NCBI GenBank assembly: GCA_028285005.1
Contig: JANQQP010000017.1
Coordinates: 1 to 64,000 of the forward strand
DNA: 64,000 nucleotides
DNA from: Dehalococcoidia bacterium
GTDB taxonomy: Bacteria; Chloroflexota; Dehalococcoidia; Lucifugimonadales; Lucifugimonadaceae
Reading direction: 5' to 3'
Below, one piece after another: positions 59,611-61,728 of this stretch; positions within the stretch are counted from its first letter, which is position 1, and every line of letters starts with the position of its first letter. A program made the translations under genes and the position numbers. The notes under the pieces are model-generated. The model saw only the letters and a program-made list of their open reading frames with translations. It was not told where the DNA came from and did no database searches.

Positions 59611-60666
59611 ATGAACCCTGCAGAACTCCACCGCACATCACTCGTCGTCGACACGCACGTCGACACCGCCACTCATCTGCTCTGGCGCTGGCCGGACTTC
59701 TCGCAACGCCTCGAAGAGGGACACCTCGATATCCCGCGGCTTCGTGAGGGCGGTGTAGATGCCGTCATGTTTGCAGTCTGGATCGACGAAGGCTTCTCGA
59801 ACGAGGCGGCGCTGAAGTTGTGCCTGCGAGGCATCGACACGATCCACAGGGCGATCGACACATACAGTGATGACCTCGCATTCGCCCGCACAGCCGCAGA
59901 CGTAACGGCAGCCCATGAGGCAGGCAAGATCGCAATCCTGATAACCATCGAAGGCGGCCGCGTGATCTGTGACGACCTCGGCATACTGCGCATGCTCGAA
60001 AGCCTCGGTGTGTGCTCCATCACGCTGGCCTGGGGCGCCGCGACCGCATGGGTCGACGCTCACAACCATCAACGGCACGGCGGGCTGACGGACTTCGGCA
60101 GGGACGTGGTAAGGGAGATGCAGCGGCTCAACATGCTGGTCGACATCTCGCACCTCTCAGATCCTGCCTTCTGGGACGTTATCGAGGTTGCCGAGAGGCC
60201 TGTGTTCGCTTCCCATTCGTCCTGCCACGCGCTGCAGCCTCACACCCGCAACATGAAGGACGACATGATCGAGGCGCTGGCGAAGAACGGTGGCGTGATG
60301 AATATCAACTTCTTCGGCGGGTTCATTGGCGCCAACCCTGAGACCGGCCATGTTGAGCCAACCCTAAGGAAACCGCCGGTTTACCGAGACCCGTTCGACC
60401 GCATCGCCTATATGGTGCCGGAGCCCGGTCCGCCACTCAGCCGCTTGATCGACCACTACAACCATGCGATCAAGCTGGCCGGGGCCGAGCACGTCGGCAT
60501 AGGCTCAGACTTCGATGGTGTGACTCAGCTCCCACAGGGCATGGAAGACGCCTCAAACCTGCCATCGCTCACGGCTGGACTCCTCGAAGCCGGCCACAGC
60601 GAACATGACGTCACCCAGATCCTCGGCGCCAACAACCTGCGCCTCTTCGAACAAACCCTGAGCTAG
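59611..60666 (+). CDS. Membrane dipeptidase family (M19) metallopeptidase
   Basis: A 351-residue M19 peptidase. The binuclear zinc ligands appear in order: VVDTHVDT (H-x-D, near 14-18), ITIEGG (the bridging Glu near 114), DISHLS (His near 180) and FASHSSCHAL (His near 198-203). The later blocks NINFFGGF and GIGSDFDGV carry the final Asp. No signal peptide is visible, so it should be cytoplasmic. Family members hydrolyse dipeptides, including ones with D-residues, and sometimes beta-lactams. Confidence 0.92.
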   Translation: MNPAELHRTSLVVDTHVDTATHLLWRWPDFSQRLEEGHLDIPRLREGGVDAVMFAVWIDEGFSNEAALKLCLRGIDTIHRAIDTYSDDLAFARTAADVTAAHEAGKIAILITIEGGRVICDDLGILRMLESLGVCSITLAWGAATAWVDAHNHQRHGGLTDFGRDVVREMQRLNMLVDISHLSDPAFWDVIEVAERPVFASHSSCHALQPHTRNMKDDMIEALAKNGGVMNINFFGGFIGANPETGHVEPTLRKPPVYRDPFDRIAYMVPEPGPPLSRLIDHYNHAIKLAGAEHVGIGSDFDGVTQLPQGMEDASNLPSLTAGLLEAGHSEHDVTQILGANNLRLFEQTLS

Positions 60667-60671
60667 CCGTC

Positions 60672-60728
60672 CCTTAATCCCTCTCCCATCAAGGGAGAGG
60701 GATTAAGGGAGAGGGTGATGTCGGCCGC
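60672..60728. repeat. Family A palindromic repeat
   Basis: Near-perfect palindrome CCCTTAATCCCTCTCCC, then ATCA, then its reverse complement, followed by a third GGGAGAGGG and TGATGTCGG. The loop is in the opposite sense (ATCAA) to other copies (TTGAT), so the hairpin appears flipped here. It lies between two convergent genes and may terminate both. Confidence 0.75.
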
Positions 60729-60751: not shown

Positions 60752-61168
60752 TCACTCCGGATCCTTGAACCACCTGGCGAACCTGCCTCTGTTCCGAGCG
60801 AACAGCCTGTAACCCGGCTCAAATAGCAGGCTCACCGGCTTTGGTGACAGCAATCGCCCAACCACCCCTGTAAACCCGCCCACCTGTCCCGCAATAGTGA
60901 AGATCGCTTGCGCACCCGTCCGTACACGGCCATCGCGGTCTACAACGACAATCGTGCGCTTAGTTAGCTCCGGCACCACCGTATCGTTTGCAGCACGCAC
61001 CGTCTCAGCATCATTCGTCAGCAGCCGAATCGAGCCATGAACATCTCTCCGCTGGACCCAGCGGCTGAAGGCGCGTCAGACCGGTCAACCACCGTCGTAG
61101 AAAACGGTCAGCTGCCAGGACTCGGGCTTGGGTGCTTCGTCGATGAGATCGCTCCTCGTCTCAGTCAA
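60752..61168 (-). CDS. DUF393/DCC-family thiol-disulfide oxidoreductase-like protein; probable selenoprotein with UxxU motif
   Basis: From 61000 (GTG) to the stop at 60752 the product is only the C-terminal part of a DUF393 protein, ending PGYRLFARNRGRFARWF. Reading upstream in the same frame gives FSRWVQRRDVHGSIRLLTND and, before it, LTVFYDGG-x-PV-x-RAF, where each x is a TGA (61085-61087, 61076-61078). In the family both are the redox cysteines of YDGxCxxC. With Sec at both, the protein is 138 residues from a TTG at 61168 (Sec28, Sec31), a normal family length. A hairpin suited to a SECIS lies just after. The start is uncertain (GTG at 61192 also possible). A damaged pseudogene is less likely, since the two changes hit only the two cysteine codons. 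Confidence 0.72.
61049..61064 (-). promoter_or_regulatory. Candidate bacterial SECIS hairpin inside the DUF393 gene
   Basis: On the minus strand the sequence CCGCUGGGUCCAGCGG forms a perfect 6-bp stem with a GGUC loop (or 7 bp around GU). The first loop G is 17 nt after the second UGA and 26 nt after the first, within the spacing known for bacterial SECIS elements, which also prefer G at the start of the loop. It lies in the SRWVQR codons. Confidence 0.6.
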
Positions 61169-61206: not shown

Positions 61207-61728
61207 ATGCCCGAGCTTCCCGACCGGCTCAAACAGATTCTCAGCGACAGCTTCTACCTGCGCACCGCGCTCAAGCGCAGGGATGGCTCGCCGCGTGTCA
61301 TCGAGACCACATACTACTGGGATGGCGCAGATAAGATCGTGCTTTCGGGCTATCCGGGGAAGCGCGACTGGGTCGCCAGCATGGCCCGCAACTCGGACGT
61401 AACCGTGCATACAGTCGAATTCGAGCCGGTCTACGAAATCGCTGCCTCGGCCAGGGTGCTCCGAGACCGTGAAGAGCGCATTCCGCACCTTTTCAACTTC
61501 ATAGAGCACTGGGCGCAGCGGCCTGGATTCCCACGCCGCCGGTTCCAGTTCCTGCTCGGCGCCGTGAAGATCAATCGCAGTCTGCGACTGCCCTGGTGGG
61601 GCCCGTTCATCATCGCTCGACGCATCTTCGACCGGATGCCCTGCGTGGTGATCACGCTGACCGGCGAGCCGGTCGAACGCGAGTCAACGCCACCTCTTTC
61701 TGAGCCGCAGCGAGGCCGGCCGTTCTAG
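61207..61728 (+). CDS. Deazaflavin (F420)-dependent nitroreductase family protein
   Basis: A 173-residue protein of the DUF385/F420-dependent nitroreductase-quinone reductase fold: RDGSPRVIETTYYWDG, KIVLSGYPGKRDWVASM, NSDVTVHTVEFEP and the final RMPCVVITLTGEP. The split-barrel fold binds F420 or flavin and reduces quinones or other acceptors. It is divergent from the DUF393 gene, with only about 40 nt between starts. Its stop shares CTAG with the convergent exonuclease gene. Confidence 0.82.
   Translation: MPELPDRLKQILSDSFYLRTALKRRDGSPRVIETTYYWDGADKIVLSGYPGKRDWVASMARNSDVTVHTVEFEPVYEIAASARVLRDREERIPHLFNFIEHWAQRPGFPRRRFQFLLGAVKINRSLRLPWWGPFIIARRIFDRMPCVVITLTGEPVERESTPPLSEPQRGRPF

Follow-up and report, generated by a model that had tools for sequence, protein, structure and literature searches.

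Locus and reading frame

The DNA studied here (the window) is a stretch of 64,000 nt from a Chloroflexota (SAR202-type) genome, named G000 in our set, and all positions are numbered within this window. On its minus strand, at 60752..61168, lies a DCC1-like (PF04134/DUF393) gene that is predicted to encode a selenoprotein of 138 aa if translation starts at TTG 61168. Read from 61168 to 60752, the frame gives LTETRSDLIDEAPKPESWQLTVFYDGG-U-PV-U-RAFSRWVQRRD...FKDPE-stop, where U stands for selenocysteine (Sec). Two TGA codons lie inside the frame, at 61085..61087 and 61076..61078 on the minus strand; they occupy the first and second Cys of the DxxCxxC motif, respectively, and both are predicted to be read as Sec, while the terminal stop at 60752..60754 (minus strand) is likewise TGA. 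The gene reads DGG-TGA-CCG-GTC-TGA at the place where relatives have the Cys codons of DxxCxxC, and the motif is present only if TGA means Sec. The other candidate starts are GTG 61192 and CTG 61111; among the 24 genes listed, 8 have ATG or TTG at the position of the latter, and CTG recurs there in the related genomes G102 and G105.

An earlier note on this DNA had claimed that the frame from 61000 to 60752 encodes only the C-terminal part of a DUF393 protein, and that the redox segment of the N-terminus lies intact upstream with both CxxC codons as TGA. Both claims are borne out. The conventional open reading frame (ORF) at the locus covers 61000-60752 only (82 aa, the C-terminal part), and the N-terminal segment is LTVFYDGG-U-PV-U-RAFSRWVQRRD when the two TGAs are read through. 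With Cys put at the TGAs, the protein matched PF04134 nearly over its full length (profile positions 1-112 of 113) at 70.2 bits and an E-value of 4.4e-19, the curated cut-off being 27.8 bits. In a whole-genome profile search, this gene was the single PF04134 place in G000, with two TGAs and zero other stops inside. These results confirm that two TGAs stand at the catalytic Cys codons of a whole DCC1-like gene. The NCBIfam scan of the protein and four of its relatives gave no model over its cut-off.

Codons at the motif in related genomes

The PF04134 profile was searched against 250 genomes of the order. A match was found in 117 of them, and 13, the window's included, had TGA inside the match; all 13 carried TGA at the motif. 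In the window's genus, G000, G103 and G105 had the UxxU form and G102 and G106 the CxxU form. CxxU was likewise carried by seven genomes from genus g8 and by G207, which belongs to another family. U-type relatives in the window's family are thus mostly CxxU (9/12). Among the five copies found in the window's genus, position 2 of the motif was TGA in all five, and position 1 was TGA in G000, G103 and G105 (3/5), TGC in G102 and TGT in G106. The PF04134 search gave no DCC match in G101 and G104, two further genomes of this genus.

A second search, with an alignment profile at an E-value of 1e-8 or better, covered 400 genomes of the phylum sampled from a larger group; at most 11 first-look candidates were scored per genome, and its counts are lower bounds. 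At least 62 genomes matched, at least 15 besides the window with TGA. In at least 14 genes, all from family f82, TGA stood at the motif (7 UxxU, 3 UxxC and 4 CxxU). The fifteenth TGA-bearing match, in G276, was rejected, as the gene is CxxC and the TGA is its own terminal stop. Every TGA-bearing match of both searches was read out, and most of the TGA-free matches were left unread. A side observation is that G639 carries a UGFU and a CGPC copy of the DCC gene in a single genome. DCC matches with in-frame TAA or TAG were seen in G091 and G217, outside the U-type group, and these genes are possibly decayed or misassembled.

In total, 27 U-type DCC genes were found in 27 Chloroflexota genomes, the window's included: 10 UxxU, 14 CxxU and 3 UxxC. 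Their domains contain 37 in-frame TGAs, every one of which stands at one of the two motif codons, a pattern beyond chance. Position 1 was TGA, TGT and TGC in 13, 8 and 6 genes, respectively, and position 2 was TGA in 24 and TGC in 3. No other in-frame stop before the end of the domain was present in any of the 27. The CxxU form is also present in a cultured relative: G107, which shares its family with G000, is the complete chromosome (CP046147.1) of Ca. Lucifugimonas marina JH1073, which has been described as a cultured SAR202 strain (PMC10444878).

The public predictions of three U-type copies (P0009, P0019 and P0030) are C-terminal fragments, so the trait is easily overlooked. Two public metagenome predictions of the same protein family, P0010 and P0040, have W as the second motif residue, apparently because a gene caller translated TGA as Trp.

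Selenocysteine machinery

The genome G000 (3.29 Mb, 46 contigs, 87.7% complete) contains a tRNA-Sec of 69.7 bits, above the Rfam cut-off, which ARAGORN calls SeC with anticodon tca. SelA, SelB and SelD were found at 549.5, 326 and 367.4 bits, respectively. The selD gene (G000:C34:5758-6684) itself has one in-frame TGA, in SCAGUAGKLS, and the Sec motif of SelD is given as UxxK in a review table (PMC13188914). Because this TGA lies at the Sec site of SelD, it is a second piece of evidence in G000 for the reading of TGA as Sec.

The machinery was then compared with the motif codons, and the following tallies are counts among related genomes, not independent events. In the window's family (76 genomes), SelB was over the cut-off in 12/12 U-type genomes and SelA in 11/12, the miss being G102, whose genome is 74% complete. 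In the Cys-type genus g5 (G086-G089, genes CVVC), neither SelA nor SelB was over the cut-off in any of the four genomes. A further set of 62 genomes, made of 61 of the 62 phylum matches (the window's excluded) and G207, had SelA over the cut-off in 51, including all 15 U-type genomes. In the 11 SelA-less genomes of this set, 10 matches cover the motif, which is free of TGA in each of them; the match in G573 begins past the motif. Cys-type DCC genes also occur in Sec-using genomes, such as G108 (SelA and SelB), and SelA was over the cut-off in 5 of the 7 g10 genomes read.

Predicted SECIS hairpin

The published model of the bacterial selenocysteine insertion sequence (SECIS) has a loop of 3-9 nt with G in its first two bases, a stem of 4-16 bp, a distance of 16-37 nt from UGA to loop and an energy of -7.5 kcal/mol or lower (PMC13188914). 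In the window's gene, a predicted SECIS hairpin, CCGCUG-GGUC-CAGCGG, lies at 61049..61064 on the minus strand and spans the RWVQR codons. Its apical loop, GGUC (61058-61055, minus strand), is 17 nt past the second UGA and 26 nt past the first, its energy is -9.2 kcal/mol, and it lies within all limits of the bacterial model for both UGAs.

A hairpin within these limits was found in 26 of the 27 U-type genes versus 4 of 34 Cys homologues, G454 among the four. The hairpin of G120 is borderline at -7.5 kcal/mol, and the U-type gene of G619 has no hairpin by the strict limits. The window-type hairpin is present in all 14 CxxU genes, with a loop distance of 17 nt in 13 of them and 16 nt in the G207 gene. 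A hairpin of 8 bp, CGCGCUGG-GUCCG-CCGGCGCG, is found in the 3 UxxC genes, 27 nt from their sole UGA; nearly the same hairpin stands at 18 and 27 nt in five f82 UGVU genes, and a different one at 16 and 25 nt in the UGFU gene of G639. CxxU and UxxC genes each use one spacing alone and UxxU genes use both, which provides a natural control.

Covariation was analyzed in 16 of the 27 U-type genes (15 distinct; CxxU or UxxU), leaving out G207, whose hairpin is offset by one, and 10 f82 UxxU or UxxC genes, which have other hairpins or, in G619, none within the strict limits. The 6 stem pairs were standard in 100% of cells, and both sides were changed in 8 cells; these double changes were confined to two stem pairs, from C-G to U-A or G-C. 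The paired percentage, the number of double-change cells and the covariation score were each matched by 0 of 500 shuffles, the number of pairs with double changes by 55 of 500 and the number of types by 28 of 500. Synonymous recoding was also carried out, with 500 recodings per UGA weighted by codon usage; outside the window, codon usage was counted on short loci, and G123, which lacked such counts, had its codons drawn evenly. The observed hairpin was matched by at most 5% of the 500 recodings in 24 of 37 UGA tests (19 of 27 genes). The conservation of RWVQR may be partly due to the RNA hairpin.

Selection and phylogeny

The ratio of nonsynonymous to synonymous rates (dN/dS) was calculated over the 109 codons flanking the motif, with the TGA codons excluded. 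It was 0.16-0.21 in all six pairs of four same-genus copies, and the window's frame is under purifying selection. In other pairs, the ratio was 0.11 (G110/G120) and 0.19 (G119/G122). The near-identical pair G107/G123, with very few changes, gave 0.97, and G000/G106 gave no usable dS.

The tree was built from 53 proteins with the motif masked, namely 50 of the 61 DNA-derived genes and 3 database proteins, the other 11 genes being excluded as other DCC subtypes. It requires 11 changes of motif state, and for the UxxU label the starred branches imply 4 changes or more. Well-supported branches (99/96 and 99/99) lie between the group containing the f82 genes and the SAR202 genes, so UxxU would have had separate origins or been lost repeatedly. 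On the SAR202 side, UxxU genes adjoin CxxU genes; in f82, the UGVU genes group with the UxxC genes, and two UGFU genes stand apart from these. The CxxC gene of G454 falls within the UGVU genes. Its hairpin stretch is altered, and a few residues directly behind that stretch are missing. We believe that this gene is likely a return from Sec to Cys.

Structural model and putative function

The AlphaFold2 model of the window's protein had a mean predicted local distance difference test score (pLDDT) of 89.1 and a predicted template modelling score (pTM) of 0.81. Strand 1 covers residues 2-5, the motif residues 9-12 and helix 1 residues 10-22, so that the motif stands after strand 1 at the N-terminus of helix 1. 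This strand-motif-helix layout resembles the active-site arrangement of thioredoxin-fold oxidoreductases. The PDB matches were weak and mostly of the glutathione S-transferase, glutaredoxin and thioredoxin type. From the family name, Arabidopsis DCC1 and the UxxU motif of SelL, the protein is most likely a thiol/selenol-disulfide oxidoreductase that would form a diselenide and work by a diselenide/diselenol cycle.

Neighbouring genes and dispersed repeat

The divergent neighbour at 61207..61728 (plus strand) encodes 173 aa and has no Pfam match; of its three same-genus counterparts scanned, one had PNPOx_N over the cut-off, one below it and one had no match. In all four genus copies scanned (of five), an exonuclease X-like gene was found, with a PNPOx-like or unmatched gene separating it from the DCC gene. 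The convergent neighbour at 59611..60666 (plus strand) is a membrane dipeptidase (Peptidase_M19), and a dipeptidase lies on the opposite side of the DCC gene in both genus copies scanned on that side.

An inverted repeat with 18-nt arms lies at 60670..60710 (minus strand), starting 41 nt past the stop codon of the DCC gene. It is too far downstream for the SECIS distance and is a possible terminator. This repeat is a copy of a dispersed 23-nt palindrome of the type CCCTCTCCC-n5-GGGAGAGGG, which occurs at nine places in the window (83, 3126, 12514, 12560, 12795, 41358, 59289, 59471 and 60679), one copy standing directly past the predicted selenoprotein gene. Allowing up to 3 mismatches, 12 matches were counted on both strands, and none in 100 shuffles.

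Interpretation and alternative explanations

In this study, we believed, with a probability of roughly nine in ten, that the DCC1-like gene of the window, whose product likely has a thioredoxin fold, yields a UPVU selenoprotein, and that one hairpin within the coding sequence is likely the SECIS for both UGAs. The earlier note had proposed Sec at both positions, and the Sec machinery, the codons of the relatives and the SECIS-type hairpin support this as a prediction from sequence. The sequence-based checks it had suggested pointed the same way: homologues have TGA or Cys codons exactly at the two places with no random stops elsewhere in the domain, selA, selB, selD and a Sec tRNA are all in G000, and a hairpin within the published bacterial limits lies in the gene. 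Two of the three refuting conditions it had named, missing Sec machinery and random stops in close homologues, did not occur, and for the third, TGC/TGT on re-sequencing, the codons of the relatives serve as a substitute. Three points go beyond what that note knew, namely that the U-type relatives in the family are largely CxxU, that UxxU is found in another branch of the phylum too and that one hairpin appears to serve both UGAs. In the proposed mechanism, the GGU-loop hairpin would be bound by SelB carrying Sec-tRNA, and Sec would be inserted at the first UGA, 26 nt away, and at the second, 17 nt away. The product would act as a thiol/selenol-disulfide oxidoreductase; on oxidation it would form an intramolecular diselenide, and its CxxU and UxxC relatives would form a selenenylsulfide.

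What weighs against this interpretation is the recoding of the window's own gene, which gave 8.6 and 9.0% for the two UGAs and is not significant alone; since about 9% of the recodings reach an equal hairpin, the case for the SECIS rests on the family. It is also conceivable that efficient reading as Sec is limited to the second UGA and that the first mostly terminates or regulates and is near neutral, so that the UxxU protein would be rare. The presence of the first TGA in just 3 of the 5 copies of the genus would fit this, as would the distance of the hairpin, 26 nt from the first UGA versus 17 nt from the second. However, the UxxC genes G336, G423 and G500 have TGA at position 1 alone with the hairpin at 27 nt, which indicates that the far spacing occurs by itself, and UxxU is kept in seven f82 genomes and three of the window's genus. 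We therefore regard this restricted reading as improbable.

The remaining explanations would remove Sec altogether, and each of them seems very unlikely to us. Two nonsense mutations in a decayed gene would explain why the conventional ORF is a C-terminal fragment only, yet this is already contradicted by the dN/dS of 0.16-0.21 in the window's genus, by the same codons in many genomes and by the lack of any other stop in the domain of 27/27 genes. The earlier note had argued that decay explains the two TGAs poorly, and the confinement of 37/37 in-frame TGAs to the motif codons agrees with it. TGA might instead be read as tryptophan or by general read-through, as the W of P0010 and P0040 might suggest, but the non-TGA motif codons in the 27 genes are TGT or TGC and never TGG, the window's gene itself terminates at TGA, and tRNA-Sec, SelA, SelB and a Sec-type SelD are all in G000. 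An error of sequencing or assembly at both codons could be suspected in a genome of 46 contigs and 87.7% completeness that looks like a metagenome assembly. Against such an error, the same TGAs recur in many genomes, and position 2 is TGA also in the cultured Ca. Lucifugimonas marina JH1073, whose PacBio genome is closed.

Returning to the two-Sec interpretation, we consider a wider picture of the family probable, though less so than the UPVU product itself. The DCC domain would form a selenoprotein family in which CxxC, CxxU, UxxC and UxxU are all alive in one phylum and UxxU was reached at least twice. A single in-frame SECIS would decode two UGAs at 17-18 and 26-27 nt, single-Sec relatives would use either distance alone, and RWVQR would owe its conservation to the RNA hairpin as much as to the protein.

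Comparison with known systems

A 2026 review lists, by its own text, 119 prokaryotic selenoprotein families or subfamilies (PMC13188914); its main text mentions neither PF04134 nor DUF393 nor DCC, and no occurrence of DCC was found in that of a 2022 review (PMC9312934). The earlier note knew of no described DUF393 protein with a double Sec motif, and this statement stood: full-text searches of the open-licence literature and the NCBIfam searches found no DCC (DUF393) selenoprotein, and a report elsewhere is possible. What appears to be new here is a DCC oxidoreductase for which Sec is predicted at one catalytic position or at both. It would add a redox family not found among the listed selenoprotein families and bearing the rare double-Sec motif, in a lineage that has been described as ubiquitous in the ocean (PMC10444878). 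Since CxxC, CxxU, UxxC and UxxU all occur naturally in this domain, the gain of a diselenide over a disulfide active site can be tested directly. Similarly, one hairpin apparently serving two UGAs allows the need of SelB for a fixed distance between UGA and SECIS to be tested.

Several known selenoproteins share the motif. SelW-like CxxU selenoproteins, listed in the review table (PMC13188914), resemble most U-type SAR202 relatives in their motif, but they belong to a different Pfam family, PF10262, which the window's protein does not match. The same source lists UxxU in its Table 1 for Prx-like proteins, NF041115 metal-binding proteins and FmdB family TIGR02605 proteins. The latter two have two Sec in UxxU as well, whereas neither model was matched by the window's protein or its four relatives in the NCBIfam scan. 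Studies have shown that both Sec of fish SelL are inserted through a single SECIS (PMC3316567), and UxxU has been described in marine Prx-like 2 sequences (PMC2398784). These are proteins of the thiol-oxidoreductase type with a UxxU redox motif, as is predicted here, but they represent another protein family: in the Pfam scan, AhpC/TSA (PF00578) and the SelP-N type (PF04592) were absent from the window's protein at E-values up to 1, and only PF04134 was over the cut-off. Moreover, unlike theirs, the hairpin of the window lies inside the coding sequence beside the UGAs, in the bacterial style. DCC1-like oxidoreductases (PF04134) share the whole-domain Pfam match and the position of DxxCxxC with the window's protein; Arabidopsis DCC1, for example, has been reported to be a functional thioredoxin in which the DxxCxxC motif is conserved (PMC6603150, PMC7598583). 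In contrast to these oxidoreductases, both Cys codons are TGA in the gene of the window.
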